A stretch of DNA of 64,000 nucleotides from Xenophilus sp. AP218F. GTDB taxonomy: Bacteria > Pseudomonadota > Gammaproteobacteria > Burkholderiales > Chromobacteriaceae. Within the stretch, counting starts at the first letter, position 1; each line of letters starts with the position of its first letter. The stretch lies in assembly GCA_002213445.1 (NCBI GenBank), contig NJIE01000008.1, positions 186,001-250,000 of the forward strand. Reading direction: 5' to 3'. The position numbers and the translations under genes are program-made. This document shows positions 10,634-21,591 of this stretch, piece after piece. The notes under the pieces were generated by a model. It ran no database searches and was not told the DNA's origin. It saw only the letters and a program-made list of their open reading frames with translations.

Positions 10634-10659
10634 AAACCCGCTCCCCGGCGGGTTTTTTT
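10634..10659 (+). terminator. Intrinsic terminator of tail operon
   Basis: AACCCGC/GCGGGTT stem followed by seven T residues, 20 nt after the fibre assembly gene. It separates the late tail operon from the LuxR-type gene, which must therefore have its own promoter or rely on readthrough. Confidence 0.9.
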
Positions 10660-10704
10660 CTACGTAGTTTCCACTAGAACAGAGAGAACATCCGATGAGA
10701 ATTT

Positions 10705-11442
10705 ATGCAGATACAGGACATCAGCCGACTTACCAGCCACATGCTGGCCCTGCTCGACAAGATGACGCAGGTGAATGACATGCAGGGCATCGCGCGACTG
10801 GTGGTGGCCTGGCATGGGCTGTTGCCGTTTGGCACGCGCGCGTTGCTGGTGGTCGGTGTGGCTGGCGCGGCGCGGCAGCCAACCGAGGTGCTGGGCAATG
10901 TCGGCTGGCCGGAGTCGTGGCCGGCGGAGTACGCACGCATCCGCGCGCATCGGGTGGACCCGGTGTGGAACAGCCCGCCGGGGCGACTGGTTGTCTGGTC
11001 TCAAGCCCTGAAGGTGGAGCGTCAGCCCGGCATGCGAGCGTTTTTGCGGGTGGCGGCCGAGGCGGAGCTGACCCACGGCGTGAGCTGGATTGAGCAACGC
11101 GGCCAGTTCCGCATCATCTTTTCGCTGGCCGGGCAGGCTGTGGAGTCGGACCCGGTGACAGCGGAGCTACTGGCCAGCCTGGCGCCGAGGCTGGCCGACA
11201 TCGTGGCGCGCGTACTGTCCGAAAGGCCAGTTATAGACGATCTGGACGCGAGAGACTGCAGCATCCTGCAGTTCATGCTGCACGGGCATGGGGACGACGA
11301 GATTGCCCGCAGCATAGGCATTTCGGTGCGCACGGTGCGGGCCAGAATCAACCGGATCAGGGGGGTGCATGGCGCGCGGAACCGTGTTGACCTGGTGCGC
11401 CGGCTATTCCAGCTGCGGCCGGAGGCTGTAACCGGTAGGTAA
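10705..11442 (+). CDS. Prophage-encoded LuxR-type receptor/regulator
   Basis: 245-aa protein with the two-domain layout of quorum-sensing LuxR receptors. The N-terminal half has W72, Y76, D85, P86, W98 and G125. Compared with the invariant TraR positions W57, Y61, D70, P71, W85 and G113, the spacing is identical from W to P and within two residues afterwards, so the acyl-homoserine-lactone pocket looks intact. Residues about 180-235 form a GerE-type HTH (ILQFMLHGHGDDEIARSIGIS, TVRARINRIRG). It lies alone between the tail operon terminator and the convergent immunity operon, with no luxI synthase in the window: a solo receptor that would sense host or neighbour signals. The ribosome site is weak (GATGAG). 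Family is confident; ligand and targets are inference. Confidence 0.88.
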   Translation: MQIQDISRLTSHMLALLDKMTQVNDMQGIARLVVAWHGLLPFGTRALLVVGVAGAARQPTEVLGNVGWPESWPAEYARIRAHRVDPVWNSPPGRLVVWSQALKVERQPGMRAFLRVAAEAELTHGVSWIEQRGQFRIIFSLAGQAVESDPVTAELLASLAPRLADIVARVLSERPVIDDLDARDCSILQFMLHGHGDDEIARSIGISVRTVRARINRIRGVHGARNRVDLVRRLFQLRPEAVTGR

Positions 11443-11473
11443 ATGCCCGTAACGGCGGGATGTCAGAAGTGCG

Positions 11474-11533
11474 ATTTACCGGCGCAACGCCGGCGAGTAA
11501 ATTTCGCGGCATAAATACAGAGGTTTTTATGCC
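11474..11533. repeat. Two inverted repeats after the LuxR-type gene
   Basis: Within the 132-bp gap between the convergent LuxR-type gene and the secreted-protein gene lie two hairpins. The first (11474-11502) has a perfect CCGGCG/CGCCGG stem with a 3-nt loop, extended by ATTTA/TAAAT. The second (11508-11533) has GGCATAAA/TTTATGCC arms with a 10-nt loop. Neither has a strong T-run, so they may be weak terminators or protein sites. No classic CTG-N10-CAG lux box was seen in this gap. Confidence 0.6.
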
Positions 11534-11574: not shown

Positions 11575-11940
11575 TTACTTCTTCACCGCGCGCTCGCAGC
11601 TGGCCAGATCTTGCTGAAAATGGCGCTGCTTCCTGTCGCGCCAGGTGTAATCCTTGCGCTCGTACGCTTCCAGGAAGCCGATCATATCCGTCACCGCAGA
11701 GTGGCAGTCCATGTAGTCGGCGTGTCGGGCATCATCTGGCCACGCATGAAAGCGCTGATACGCATCGCGCTTTATCCGCTGCAGCGCGACTTTATCCCCG
11801 GATTTCCCTGCTCGGTTCACGTCCACGCGGGCTTTGTGCAGCCATGCCAACAGGGCTTTGGCGTCGCCTTGGGGGTTGGCCGCCATAGTGGCCGGCGCGG
11901 CCAGCGTCAGGGCGAGGAAGAGGGCGAGAGCGGGCTTCAT
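11575..11940 (-). CDS. Small secreted protein in lysogenic operon
   Basis: 121-aa protein with a clear Sec signal peptide: MKPALALFLALTLAAPATMA, probable cleavage after Ala20. The mature part is helical and charged, with two cysteines (about residues 78 and 115) that could form a disulfide. No family recognised. The start overlaps the stop of the upstream repressor gene by 4 nt, so it is the third gene of the minus-strand repressor operon. It should therefore be made while the phage is dormant: a candidate lysogenic-conversion factor acting in the periplasm. Confidence 0.72.
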   Translation of the reverse strand: MKPALALFLALTLAAPATMAANPQGDAKALLAWLHKARVDVNRAGKSGDKVALQRIKRDAYQRFHAWPDDARHADYMDCHSAVTDMIGFLEAYERKDYTWRDRKQRHFQQDLASCERAVKK

Positions 11941-12284
11941 TTGCTGATCCAGTCTCGCATGAACTGCAACAGGATGGCGCGCTTGGCGCGGGGCAGTTGC
12001 TCGAATAGATCGATGACTTCTTTCAGGTCTGGGCTTAGCGGGAACTCTGCCGCCGGAATTTCCGACGGCACGTAGCTCAACTCCATCGCTCCGCGGCCCG
12101 TGGCTAGCCAGTCGTAGCTGACGTGTAAGGCCAAGGCGATACGGGATAGATTGTCAGTGGTCGGCTCGGATTTGCATTGCTCCCATAAGGATGCGCTGCA
12201 TTGAGTTACGCCGACCTCATCTGCCAGCCATTGTTGAGAGCGATTCCGCGTCTTTCTGGCCTCTTTTATCCGATTGCCAATCAT
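11937..12284 (-). CDS. Phage repressor-like XRE protein, second copy
   Basis: 115-aa protein. Residues 3-65 form an XRE/Cro-CI helix-turn-helix (RIKEARKTRNRSQQWLADEV, then SRIALALHVSYDWLATGRG). The C-terminal 45 residues are a helical acidic segment, with no S24/LexA-type peptidase. It is close to the protein encoded just upstream (12291-12632) through residue ~66, but differs in the putative recognition helix (TQCSASLWEQC versus LQSSVSAWEIC). The genes are 6 bp apart, so they form a tandem duplication within one operon. Probable role: immunity or lysogeny maintenance. Confidence 0.85.
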   Translation of the reverse strand: MIGNRIKEARKTRNRSQQWLADEVGVTQCSASLWEQCKSEPTTDNLSRIALALHVSYDWLATGRGAMELSYVPSEIPAAEFPLSPDLKEVIDLFEQLPRAKRAILLQFMRDWISK

Positions 12285-12290
12285 GCGTAG

Positions 12291-12632
12291 CTACTTAGTA
12301 AGCGAACGTAGGATGGCCATGATCGATTGTCGAAGGCTGACGTTCAAGGACCTGTATCGATCTAGGAGTTCAGTTTCATCAGCGGTGAGCGGCATCTGAT
12401 CGCTTGCCTGTATAGGCGAAGCGGTAAGGTACATATCCCCCCGGCCGGTTGCTAACCAGTCATGGCTGACACGCAACACTTGAGCAATGCGTGACAGATT
12501 TTCGGTCGTGGGCTCACTCCGACAAATCTCCCATGCACTGACCGATGACTGGAGAACACCTACTTCGTCCGCTAGCCATTGCTGAGACTGTTTGCGCGCC
12601 TTACGCGCTTCTTTGATTCGAGATCCAATCAT
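12291..12632 (-). CDS. Phage repressor-like XRE protein, first copy
   Basis: 113-aa XRE-family repressor, the first gene of the minus-strand immunity operon and divergent from the cro-like gene. HTH at about residues 3-65 (RIKEARKARKQSQQWLADEV; SRIAQVLRVSHDWLATGRG). The short C-terminal helix pair lacks the autocleavage domain of lambda CI, so RecA-triggered self-cleavage is not expected. Induction would need another route such as an antirepressor. No clear ribosome site precedes the ATG. A TAAAAT -10-like hexamer only 6 nt upstream on the minus strand suggests a leaderless transcript, as for lambda cI from PRM. Confidence 0.87.
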   Translation of the reverse strand: MIGSRIKEARKARKQSQQWLADEVGVLQSSVSAWEICRSEPTTENLSRIAQVLRVSHDWLATGRGDMYLTASPIQASDQMPLTADETELLDRYRSLNVSLRQSIMAILRSLTK

Positions 12633-12741
12633 TTTTGAATTTTATGTGTGTTGCGCATATTTGCGTAATGCAAATTGTTGTTGACAGTTAAATGTCTATG
12701 GAACATATTTCCATCAAACATAAATGTTTGTGAGGCATAAA
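12633..12741. promoter_or_regulatory. Divergent immunity promoter and operator region
   Basis: Rightward promoter with TTGACA at 12681-12686, 17-bp spacer and CATATT at 12704-12709, reading into the cro-like gene. Several palindromes overlap it: ATTTGC/GCAAAT (12659-12675), GACA/TGTC (12683-12696), GGAA/TTCC (12700-12712), and a perfect CAAACAT-AA-ATGTTTG (12715-12730) near the expected transcript start. These are candidate operators for the two repressors and Cro. A minus-strand TAAAAT at about 12638-12643 may serve the repressor operon. Confidence 0.75.
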
Positions 12742-12939
12742 ATGATGAATAGCCATCTGCGAGAGGCTCGCAAGCGTATGGGAATGACCCAGCCAGAATT
12801 GGCAAGGCATGTGTCGGTTTCTCAAGGGCATATCAGCCGACTTGAGAGGTTAAAAGACAACGCATCACCTGATCTGGCGAAGCGTTTGGCACAGGTGCTG
12901 AACATTCCCGTCACCAAAATTCTTTATCCAGACGAATGA
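12742..12939 (+). CDS. Cro-like XRE regulator
   Basis: 65-aa protein (start at ATG 12742) that is essentially one XRE helix-turn-helix: LREARKRMGMTQPELARHVS, then VSQGHISRLERLKDN and a closing LAQVLNIPVTKILYPDE. It is the first rightward gene from the divergent immunity promoter, the position of cro. ATG 12742 is chosen over 12724 because a GAGG ribosome site lies 6 nt before it and because the earlier codon falls within a palindromic operator. Probably represses the lysogenic operon when the lytic cycle begins. Confidence 0.85.
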   Translation: MMNSHLREARKRMGMTQPELARHVSVSQGHISRLERLKDNASPDLAKRLAQVLNIPVTKILYPDE

Positions 12940-13063: not shown

Positions 13064-13570
13064 ATGAACATTTCAGTGGCGGCAAGCCAGACGCCGGCTC
13101 CGGCGGACGTATTCGGCATGCTGCATCTTTCGGCCAAGGCGTTTGGCATCACAAGGCTGGCGGGTGTCATGCGCGTCTCTCCCGGCGTGCTGACCAACAA
13201 GCTGGCACCCATGGCTCACCACCACAAAACCACGCTGGACGATTTCATCCAGGTGCTGCGCATTACTGGCGACTTGTCGCCGCTGGATGCGCTGTGCCGG
13301 CTGTTCGATAGCGCCCGTTACCAGTTGCCGCGGCTGGATAACGTGTCCGACTCCGCGCTGCTGGATTTGGTCAACAAGGTTCATGCCGAAGGCGGCGATG
13401 TGCATCGCTCCATGAACGAGGCGCTGGCTGACGGCATCGTGACCCAGGACGAATTCAACGAAGTGGATTGCGAGCTGATGGAGTGGATCGCCGCCATCGT
13501 GGAGCTGCGCAACCGTTTTGGCAGCCTGGTGGTGAAGCCTTCAGAGACTCAGGTGTGCCCCTCGGTTTGA
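13064..13570 (+). CDS. Phage regulatory protein CII family
   Basis: 168-aa protein resembling the phage_CP76/CII regulatory family. An HTH-like first half contains LHLSAKAFGITRLAGVMRVS, then LTNKLAPMAHHHKTTLDDF and QVLRITGDLSPLDALC. The second half is helical and acidic. Proteins of this family control early transcription or lysogeny choice in P2-like and related phages. A CAGGAG ribosome site precedes the ATG. It lies between the cro-like gene and the BRO-N antirepressor gene, in the rightward early operon. The 124-bp gap upstream holds GC-rich sequence with no gene seen. Confidence 0.82.
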   Translation: MNISVAASQTPAPADVFGMLHLSAKAFGITRLAGVMRVSPGVLTNKLAPMAHHHKTTLDDFIQVLRITGDLSPLDALCRLFDSARYQLPRLDNVSDSALLDLVNKVHAEGGDVHRSMNEALADGIVTQDEFNEVDCELMEWIAAIVELRNRFGSLVVKPSETQVCPSV

Positions 13571-13618
13571 GGGGTGTGTCCCCGGCCGCCAGGCCATTTC
13601 CGTGAAAGAGAGAGAACC

Positions 13619-14164
13619 ATGCTGCAAAAAGTTACGCAGGCCACGCCATTCGCCTTTGGCGAAATCGAGTTGTCGCAAACCGTCTTCATCGATGGCGTGC
13701 CGTACGCCACCCGTCGGGCGGTGGGGGAGTGGCTGGAGTATGCCGATCCGCAAAAGGCGATTGACAAGATTTTGGAGCGGAATCTGCACATTGAAGCCCA
13801 TTCAGTACCCGTCAGATTGACGGGTACTGACGGCAAAAACTATGAGACCCGTGTCTATCACCCGATCGGCTTCCTGCTGATGGTGATGGAGTCCGGCCAG
13901 CCCAAGGCGCACGAGATGAAAGCCGCGGTGGCGGAGTTTGTCTGGAGCTTTGCTGGCCCGCGCCAGCTGGGTTTTCGCGAGCGGGATAGCTTGCTGCGGC
14001 AACGCCGGCAACTGGTGCTGGACCTGACCAAATTGCGCGACGCTTTTGGCCGGCAAGCTCTGATGGCTGATTTGCGTCAGGTGAGTTTGTCTTTGGGCTT
14101 GCCGCTGCCGGATGTGGCCTGGCTTGGCAAGGATGCGGACCAGTTGCAGCTGCCTGGGCTGTAA
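13619..14164 (+). CDS. BRO-N domain phage antirepressor
   Basis: 181-aa protein. Residues about 10-110 resemble the BRO N-terminal domain: FAFGEIELSQTVFIDGVPYA, RRAVGEWLEYADPQKAIDKI, a long beta segment, then YHPIGFLLMVMESGQPKAHE. A helical C-terminal region (RERDSLLRQRRQLVLDLTKL) follows. BRO-N proteins are DNA-binding regulators, often antirepressors, in phages and viruses. The prophage thus has two antirepressor-type genes, this one and the fragment at 2-457. ATG 13619 follows a GAGAGAGA purine stretch; no stronger ribosome site is visible. Confidence 0.82.
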   Translation: MLQKVTQATPFAFGEIELSQTVFIDGVPYATRRAVGEWLEYADPQKAIDKILERNLHIEAHSVPVRLTGTDGKNYETRVYHPIGFLLMVMESGQPKAHEMKAAVAEFVWSFAGPRQLGFRERDSLLRQRRQLVLDLTKLRDAFGRQALMADLRQVSLSLGLPLPDVAWLGKDADQLQLPGL

Positions 14165-20369: not shown

Positions 20370-21434
20370 ATGGCGACGAAGCGTCGGCATCTACCGCCGC
20401 GCATGCTGGAGCGCCGGCGGCGCTTGAAGAGCGGCGAAGAGTGGGTGGGCTACTACTACGATGGCCGGGATGATCAGGGCCGACGCAAGGAGTACCCGCT
20501 GGGGACTGACTTGAACGAGGCCAAGCGCAAGTGGGCGGAGTACGAGTGCAAGCCTGCCCCCGTGGATACCAGCCTGATGGCCTTCATCTTTGATCGCTAC
20601 GAACGGGAAATCATCCCGGGCAAGGCACCGCGGACGCAGCAGGACAATCTGCTGTCCTTGCGCCAGCTGCGCCCGGTGTTTGACTCAGCCCCGGTGGATA
20701 GCATTGCCCCGCAGCATATTGCCCAGTACCGGGACAAGCGGACGGCCAAGGTCCGAGCCAATCGGGAGATATCGCTGTTGTCGCACGTGATCAATATGGC
20801 GCGGGAGTGGGGCTATACCGCGCGGGAAAACCCCGTGCGCGGTGTGCGCAAGAACAAGGAAACGCCGCGCGACTATTACGCCGAGCAGGATGTATGGGAT
20901 GCGGTTTACGCCCAGGCGTCCGAAGAACTGCAGGATGCGATGGATGTGGCGTACCTGACCGGGCAGCGGCCGGCGGACGTGCTGAAAATGCGGGAGACGG
21001 ACATCCGCAAGGGCGCGCTGGAGGTGAAGCAGAACAAGACCAAGGCCAAGCTCCGCATTCTGCTGGATGCGGATGACGGCAGCCGCACCGAGCTTGGCAA
21101 GGTGCTGGACCGCATCCGCCGTCGGCCGCGCAAGGTACGCAGCCTGTTCCTCCTGGCCACGCCGGCAGGCTACCCGTTGAACAAGTGGACCTTGCGTGTG
21201 CGTTGGGACGCCGCTAGGGATGCGGCGATCAAGGCGGCACTGGAGGATGGCAGCCCAGACGGCAAGGAGCTAGCGGTGAGGATTCGCCAGTTCCAGTTCC
21301 GTGACATCCGGCCCAGGGCAGCCAGCGACATCGACAGCCTGGAGCAGGCCAGCGACCTGCTGGGCCACTCGGACAAGCAGATCACGGATACGGTGTATCG
21401 CAGGGTGGGGAAGGTGGTGAAGCCTACCAGGTAG
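20370..21434 (+). CDS. int: Prophage tyrosine integrase
   Basis: 354-aa site-specific recombinase. It has an arm-binding N-terminus (RRRRLKSGEEWVGYYYDGRD), a core-binding domain (about 60-160), and a catalytic domain with R200 (TGQRPADVL), R311/R314 in FRDIRP (the usual His of HxxR is replaced), H333 (LLGHSDKQ) and nucleophile Y343 (VYRRVG). It faces the tRNA-Ser, the presumed attachment locus, from which it is separated by a terminator. It is the last gene of the prophage. Confidence 0.93.
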   Translation: MATKRRHLPPRMLERRRRLKSGEEWVGYYYDGRDDQGRRKEYPLGTDLNEAKRKWAEYECKPAPVDTSLMAFIFDRYEREIIPGKAPRTQQDNLLSLRQLRPVFDSAPVDSIAPQHIAQYRDKRTAKVRANREISLLSHVINMAREWGYTARENPVRGVRKNKETPRDYYAEQDVWDAVYAQASEELQDAMDVAYLTGQRPADVLKMRETDIRKGALEVKQNKTKAKLRILLDADDGSRTELGKVLDRIRRRPRKVRSLFLLATPAGYPLNKWTLRVRWDAARDAAIKAALEDGSPDGKELAVRIRQFQFRDIRPRAASDIDSLEQASDLLGHSDKQITDTVYRRVGKVVKPTR

Positions 21435-21449
21435 TGGCTGGAGAATGAG

Positions 21450-21480
21450 AAAGGCCCGGACGACGTGTCCGGGCCTTTTT
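21450..21480. terminator. Intrinsic terminator between int and tRNA-Ser
   Basis: AAAGGCCCGGAC/GTCCGGGCCTTTTT hairpin with a 5-nt loop, just downstream of the integrase stop and of the tRNA-Ser on the opposite strand. Likely serves both. Confidence 0.92.
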
Positions 21481-21483
21481 ATT

Positions 21484-21571
21484 TGGCGGAGGCTGTGGGA
21501 TTCGAACCCACGGACGGTTGCCCGTCGGCAGTTTTCAAGACTGCTGGTTTAAACCACTCACCCAAACCTCC
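21484..21571 (-). tRNA. tRNA-Ser(UGA), complete
   Basis: 88-nt minus-strand tRNA including encoded CCA. Acceptor arms GGAGGTT/AGCCTCC pair fully (one G-T), the anticodon loop reads CTTGAAA (anticodon TGA), a long variable arm typical of serine tRNAs is present (GACGGGCAACCGTC), and the T loop contains GTTCGAATC. It lies between the integrase and a truncated tRNA-Ser of different sequence, so it is likely the phage-carried replacement copy. Confidence 0.95.
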
Positions 21572-21591
21572 GTGCCTGAAATTAGGCCGAC

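Follow-up and report, generated by a model that had tools for sequence, protein, structure and literature searches.

A prophage-borne LuxR-type receptor with a conserved acyl-homoserine lactone pocket next to the immunity region of a Chromobacteriaceae phage

Introduction

Can a temperate phage of the Chromobacteriaceae sense the density of its host? The question is raised by a gene at positions 10705..11442 (+ strand) of a 64,000-nucleotide stretch of Xenophilus sp. AP218F DNA (hereafter the window), which encodes a LuxR-type acyl-homoserine lactone (AHL) receptor and transcription factor of 245 amino acids. The original prediction for this locus had described the same open reading frame, and had suggested that host signal density could thereby influence lysogeny or late genes. 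As it also held, phage-borne LuxR receptors are already known in print (PMC6456758, PMC10432266, PMC13345283); in the available portions of these papers, such eavesdropping has been worked out in Aeromonas linear plasmid-phages and in luxI-bearing Roseobacter prophages. The matches listed in our literature search include none on a LuxR in Chromobacterium prophages, and the accessible parts of papers on C. vaccinii and C. subtsugae mention prophages but not such a luxR. Here, in a genus that often serves AHL research, an integrated-prophage lineage keeps the AHL pocket while the remaining protein drifts.

Results

The window LuxR passes the Pfam cut-offs for both domains of its family, with 33.4 bits for Autoind_bind (cut-off 23) and 29.8 bits for GerE (PF00196, cut-off 23.5). 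The latter match spans residues 180-232 (11242..11400, +), placing a GerE-type helix-turn-helix C-terminal to the signal pocket, in agreement with the prediction. CviR is the nearest solved structure both by sequence (3qp5 as best phmmer match against PDB sequences, E 1.1e-7; 3qp6 in a search with profile A4, E 1e-25) and by the fold of the structure model that had been proposed as a check; a BFVD fold search returned nothing at E 0.001 or better.

The residues W, Y, D, P, W and G form the conserved pocket that is the norm of the LuxR-type family. All six (W72, Y76, D85, P86, W98, G125) are found in the window LuxR, and all six belong to the 16 of its 245 residues that are invariant in an alignment of 14 prophage LuxRs, a set that excludes the split luxR of genome G044 (L082). 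If all positions were alike the chance of this would be 2.8e-8, which is only a rough figure because Trp, Gly and Pro tend to be conserved in any case. The six-residue list, although correct, omits two contacts: the discussion of a docking paper, as far as its available text goes, names Tyr80, Trp84, Asp97 and Ser155 as AHL contacts of CviR, while its docking table lists for C6-HSL only Trp84, Asp97 and Ser155 (PMC6132053). In the alignment with CviR, W72 corresponds to Trp84, D85 to Asp97, S140 to Ser155 and W68 to Tyr80, i.e., three of the four contacts are kept and one tyrosine has become a tryptophan. W68 and S140 are likewise invariant in 14/14 prophage LuxRs. Since one AHL contact has thus changed across the whole phage lineage, the ligand range of these receptors may be altered. 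Sequence, model, synteny and the conserved pocket give good support to an AHL receptor residing in a prophage; the phage-borne LuxR-type receptor is real and, judging from its sequence, very probably binds AHLs.

Tail sheath, tube, tape measure and baseplate genes, a primase of 934 amino acids and an integrase place luxR inside a prophage with virion genes, as had been proposed. The integrase (20370..21434, +; phrog_1, 7.8e-36) forms the right end and stops 50 bases before a tRNA-Ser gene (21484-21571), and the same prophage occurs in IMG/VR as a contig of 40,295 bases with the integrase at its end. No exact copy of at least 14 bases of 21450-21580, as expected of a left attachment repeat, occurs in C20:162000-181900. 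The prophage has no luxI, in line with the prediction: the sole PF00765 match over cut-off in the genome is a cviI-like gene on another contig, adjoining a cviR-like gene.

Upstream of luxR lies a tail fibre assembly gene, and a hairpin with an 8-bp stem followed by a run of Ts (10634..10659, +) is the probable terminator of the tail operon. A similar hairpin is seen by eye ahead of luxR in loci L036, L035 and L093, but the hairpin is missing from the list of a consensus terminator scan. Downstream, luxR is convergent with orf121 (11575..11940, -), which ends the repressor operon and has a signal-peptide-like start (by eye). The predicted location between tail-operon terminator and immunity operon therefore stands at its right border and, with the reservation of the scan, at its left; luxR does face the repressor operon, but with orf121 standing in between. 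Versions of orf121 occupy the same place in relatives (117 aa in L093, 122 aa in L080, 125 aa in L082), homologues also occur in L035 and L036, and neither Pfam nor PHROGs gives a match. As the final gene of the repressor operon in window-type prophages, orf121 could be a superinfection-exclusion protein.

The operon also comprises two short phage repressors of 115 aa (repressor 2; 11937..12284, -; HTH_3, Phage_CI_repr) and 113 aa (repressor 1; 12291..12632, -), which are 55% identical to each other, and is followed by genes for a cro-like HTH protein (12724..12939, +; Pfam), a CII-like regulator (13064..13570, +; PF06892, 4.2e-22; phrog_101) and a BRO-N anti-repressor-like protein (13574..14164, +; PF02498; phrog_245 Ant). 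The tandem repressor pair (11937-12632) also occurs in L093, and one repressor is seen in L035, L036 and L080. In CI/LexA repressors, RecA-driven self-cleavage goes with a peptidase part. Both window repressors match only HTH/repressor families in Pfam and PHROGs and no peptidase family, so that RecA-driven self-cleavage appears unlikely from their sequences, in agreement with the prediction.

The search for homologues in the same position, likewise proposed at the outset, yielded an immunity-region luxR in several other prophages from genomes and IMG/VR. Syntenic prophages are present in G009 and G011 of the same genus (LuxR 48 and 46% identical to that of the window) and on IMG/VR contig L093 (50%, with the same tandem repressor pair). 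Pseudogulbenkiania ferrooxidans 2002 (G045, L080/L096) has two genes between tail fibre and luxR, which is followed by orf122, repressor and cro, with a LuxR of 36% identity; G044 (L082; genome 80% complete) is arranged likewise and its luxR is broken into two frames, and in L081 (G038) the gene order differs, with tail sheath and tail fibre genes close to luxR. In total, the other 13 prophage LuxRs share 23-50% identity with the window LuxR. Between the window and L093, the repressors are 76-82% and Cro is 83% identical compared to 50% for LuxR, indicating that LuxR drifts apart from the adjoining switch.

Among GenBank phages, tblastn gave no match to the window LuxR at E 0.01 and none to the L043 LuxR, whereas the L038 LuxR matched seven records (0/7 covering 80%) and the LuxR of Aeromonas phage phiARM81ld matched 20 at E 0.001, ten of them with at least 80% coverage. 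A four-row scan of the genome contigs returned two loci, both already query members. In 399 genomes of the order, with at most six candidates scored per genome and a sample that omitted several known carriers, only matches of 1e-29 to 5e-21 were found besides the window gene, a range that includes the genome's own CviR (7.7e-27). The 61 genomes of the family contain 14 phage-type luxR places in 11 genomes at E < 1e-35, six of the 14 having been in the query, and the remaining matches are far off (about 1e-25 to 1e-21).

A 23-row tree groups the 14 prophage LuxRs in a single clade (100/99) and separates them from eight host rows, among which the phiARM81ld LuxR has a long branch. This tree leaves out L003, L022, L078 and the duplicate L104; among the 17 host loci considered, L014, L018, L019, L065 and L066 gave no ORF under the rule used. 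Because the prophage proteins form a separate clade, the prophage LuxR is not a recent copy of a host receptor; a recent capture of host cviR is ruled out by these separate clades and by the 26% identity between the window LuxR and CviR of its own genome. The window LuxR and Chromobacterium CviR have the six pocket residues and the serine in common, yet differ at Tyr80 and in length (265 residues in 3qp5 vs. 245), and CviR is a host receptor whereas the window LuxR is prophage-borne without luxI. The luxR reading frame is open in 14/14 compared copies, and pS exceeds pN in 6/6 pairs of four window-type luxR genes (pS 0.43-0.64, with distant pairs near saturation; pN 0.13-0.36), so these genes are under purifying selection.

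The DNA around luxR contains several conserved elements. Just past the hairpin, TACGTAGTTTyyACTAGAAC (10661..10681, +) is near-identical in the window, L036, L035 and L093 and is a candidate luxR promoter/operator. It has a single strong copy per stretch scanned and no convincing second one, the second window score being 8.1 against best scores of 6.8-13.1 among the eight of 20 mononucleotide shuffles listed; occurring once per stretch, it would argue at most for autoregulation of luxR. A 27-codon ORF (10695..10778, +) overlaps the luxR start in another frame and has the same length in the window, L035 and L036; its start triplet is conserved and its body overlaps luxR codons, so it may serve translation coupling only, or be due to chance. 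Neither this ORF nor a 9-codon ORF nearby is claimed as a real gene, their conservation being too unclear. Just 3' of luxR, the element GATGTCAGnnGTGCGATT (11459..11476, +) is found in the window, L093, L035 and L036, with all 18 bases identical between the window and L093. An inverted repeat between the convergent luxR and orf121 (11510..11531) is a possible terminator, and L093, L035 and L036 have a different inverted repeat at roughly that position (by eye). The DNA between repressor and cro is 88% identical over 73 bases between the window and L093, and has no match in L035, L036, L080 or L082.

As a target site we also considered the CviR-type box CTGNCCNNNNGGNCAG, given in the available part of PMC12114271, and rejected it as unconvincing: with at most two mismatches the window contains 88 matches vs. 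70.4 expected (sd 7.96), and 1/100 shuffles reached 88, i.e., the count is barely above chance. Exact boxes in the stretches scanned lie at 11215-11230, within the luxR coding sequence itself, and some 2.2 kb beyond the left edge of the window, at L045 15810.

A different organization is found in L037-L041, L043 and L044, whose LuxRs form a sister clade within the same family and whose luxR is convergent to a short repressor. Unlike the window prophage, these loci carry a gene of 53-76 aa 3' of luxR, and three also have an xre gene 5' of it (L041, L043, L044; no match to these XRE proteins was found in L040). L037-L044 contain terminase, RecE/RecT, RusA or similar phage genes; those of L044 comprise only a DNA-transfer family, a methyltransferase and one unnamed phage family. 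In L040 (9105-9302, -), L041 (7592-7801, +), L043 (8855-9085, -) and L044 (10282-10479, +), the small ORF encodes 65-76 aa with the motif C-[IV]-H-x3-C-H-H, has a strong ribosome site and starts about 170-185 bases 3' of luxR, ahead of the convergent repressor; no Pfam family matched these four proteins. At the corresponding place before the repressor, L037 (9167-9328, -), L038 (10247-10420, +) and L039 (10347-10520, +) have an ORF of 53-57 aa. A profile of the four CHH proteins ranks these three 1st, 3rd and 4th, as non-training hits, among 3385 ORFs with E-values of only 0.29-1.7, and the reverse profile recovers one of the four CHH proteins (12th, E 4.2); such weak values at most hint that the two sets are related. 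The second set appears to be coding since pS exceeds pN in L038, L039, L112 and L113 (pS 0.32-0.45, pN 0.06-0.14). We consider the small ORFs of the sister clade candidate AHL-controlled anti-repressors.

In the LuxRs of L040, L041, L043 and L044, the AHL domain passes its cut-off and the GerE match is under cut-off or absent from the list; DNA binding may be changed in this clade or shared with XRE, three of the four having xre 5' of luxR. The GerE matches of the L036 and L093 LuxRs are also slightly below the Pfam cut-off. By eye, a candidate LuxR or XRE operator and promoter is seen at a constant position between luxR and the small ORF in L041, L043, L044 and L040: a TGAC-N9/10-GTCA dyad and, after it, TGGGAMAATWT.

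IMG/VR prophages L117 and L118 encode LuxRs 98 and 96% identical to that of L116. Compared to L116, the repressor of L117 is 21% identical in its DNA-binding part and 85% in its last 40 residues, and the small protein is 93% identical; in L118 the two repressor parts are 27 and 24% and the small protein 24% identical, the latter beginning with a C-x-H-x3-C pattern too. No intact xre was seen 5' of luxR in L117 or L118. On these three contigs only, the small protein thus follows the C-terminal part of the repressor and not LuxR, which suggests the covariation that an anti-repressor binding this C-terminus would give. Among the ORFs of at least 30 aa in the window prophage, a profile search found no convincing member of the small-ORF family, and the small-ORF profiles found no counterpart in its closest relatives either. 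An XRE partner in operon with the window luxR is absent as well, its neighbours being the tail fibre assembly gene and convergent orf121; the XRE-like genes beside it are its repressors and cro.

Discussion

Based on position and analogy, coupling of the window LuxR to the lysis-lysogeny decision is the best explanation for this locus, and we hold it somewhat likelier than the contrary that the phage owns an AHL-responsive LuxR through which host density biases lysogeny vs. induction. In such a model, the conserved region past the tail-operon hairpin would act as luxR's own promoter in the lysogen, and the protein would fold upon binding an AHL made by the CviI-type synthase of the host or by neighbours. 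The LuxR dimer would then change how prophage genes next to the immunity region are transcribed and so bias the choice between lysogeny and induction; the short repressors of this phage are themselves unlikely to be RecA-inducible. By analogy, LuxR-AHL would promote induction. The fold, invariant pocket, shared neighbourhood, selection, host cviI and cviR genes, small ORF of the sister clade and Aeromonas precedent favour this role. Against it stand the missing small ORF of the sister-clade family, the lack of a second strong upstream element, CviR boxes near chance, Trp in place of Tyr, the relatives in G044 and G045, which have no LuxI match, and the drift of LuxR. The link to lysogeny in the original prediction has thus become more likely through the small gene covarying with the repressor C-terminus (three contigs) and the XRE-LuxR-small ORF modules of Aeromonas phages, as described in the available part of PMC10432266, and less so through the window lineage, which has neither such a small gene, nor a partner XRE, nor an identified LuxR site at the repressor promoter. 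Its second suggestion, regulation of late genes, gained no specific support.

The Aeromonas phages phiARM81ld and Apop (Silpe and Bassler 2019; Silpe et al. 2023) are among the closest precedents in that their LuxR, too, has no adjoining luxI; the phiARM81ld LuxR has the six pocket residues, and the identity to the window LuxR is 31% over 172 aa. According to the accessible parts of the papers, the Aeromonas phage LuxR is solubilised by the AHL of the host genus (PMC6456758), and both phages exist as linear plasmids that combine LuxR with an XRE partner and a cI-inactivating small ORF, the Apop cI being autoproteolysed upon DNA damage (PMC10432266). Small proteins encoded beside transcription factor genes inactivate cI in Aeromonas phages, two of them under control of AHL-bound LuxR with XRE (PMC10432266). 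The window phage, in contrast, is an integrated prophage with short repressors and has neither XRE nor such a small ORF beside luxR. In Phaeobacter and Roseobacter prophages, exchangeable xre-luxR-luxI modules tie LuxR to lysis-lysogeny, but these carry their own luxI whereas the window phage has none (PMC13345283, available portion).

The strongest alternative, though an unlikely one, is a lysogenic-conversion regulator, i.e., an AHL receptor controlling host genes or itself rather than the lysis-lysogeny choice. Cargo genes often sit at the end of a late operon, and luxR has such a place, preceded by a hairpin and a conserved element. That no LuxR site was identified at the repressor promoter of the window prophage and that LuxR diverges faster than the repressors agree with this reading, yet the fixed position beside the immunity region in other prophages and the sister-clade luxR next to repressor and small ORF do not.

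It is improbable that the receptor senses a non-AHL or non-host ligand, such as a different acyl signal or that of another species. The shift from Tyr80 to W68 in all 14 proteins would fit, but W72, D85 and S140 keep the remaining CviR contacts invariant. Genomes without a LuxI match, G044 (80% complete) and G045, carry relatives of the phage-type luxR; this would fit as well and suggests that a host LuxI is not needed for luxR to persist. On the other side, phage-type LuxR is commoner in LuxI-bearing genomes: 9/25 vs. 2/36 (Fisher p 0.005) with LuxI at E < 1e-10, a count that scores weak matches of one genus (13 genomes, seven over the Pfam cut-off) as no LuxI, 9/32 vs. 2/29 (p 0.046) by Pfam cut-off, and 9/38 vs. 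2/23 (p 0.18) by any match at E 0.001. We give this association little weight because it depends on the threshold and is confounded with genus and query origin. A decaying passenger gene without function, as the split luxR of G044 might indicate, is very improbable given the 14 open copies, pN well under pS, the invariant pocket and the conserved upstream DNA.

A published observation on C. subtsugae was set aside: in the available part of that paper a prophage operon is up in QS+ samples (PMC12114271), but the comparison is of 9 h vs. 18 h growth, and the co-induced transposase, HU and AAA ATPase suggest a Mu-like element.

Returning to the lysis-lysogeny role, we tentatively extend it, at less than even confidence, to a family-wide model: temperate phages of the Chromobacteriaceae would share one AHL-receptor lineage coupled to non-cleavable repressors. 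LuxR-AHL of the sister clade would turn on a small anti-repressor that grips the repressor C-terminus and is swapped together with it, leading to induction by host density and not by DNA damage, and the window phage would be a solo version with another target near its tandem repressors. As the repressors seem to have no self-cleavage part, these phages need an inducer other than the usual SOS route, and host density is a directly testable candidate. L116-L118 constitute a natural domain swap in which the small ORF changes with the repressor C-terminus while LuxR stays constant at 96-98%, and the small-ORF modules of the sister clade thereby offer natural swaps for finding the part of the repressor that an anti-repressor would recognise.
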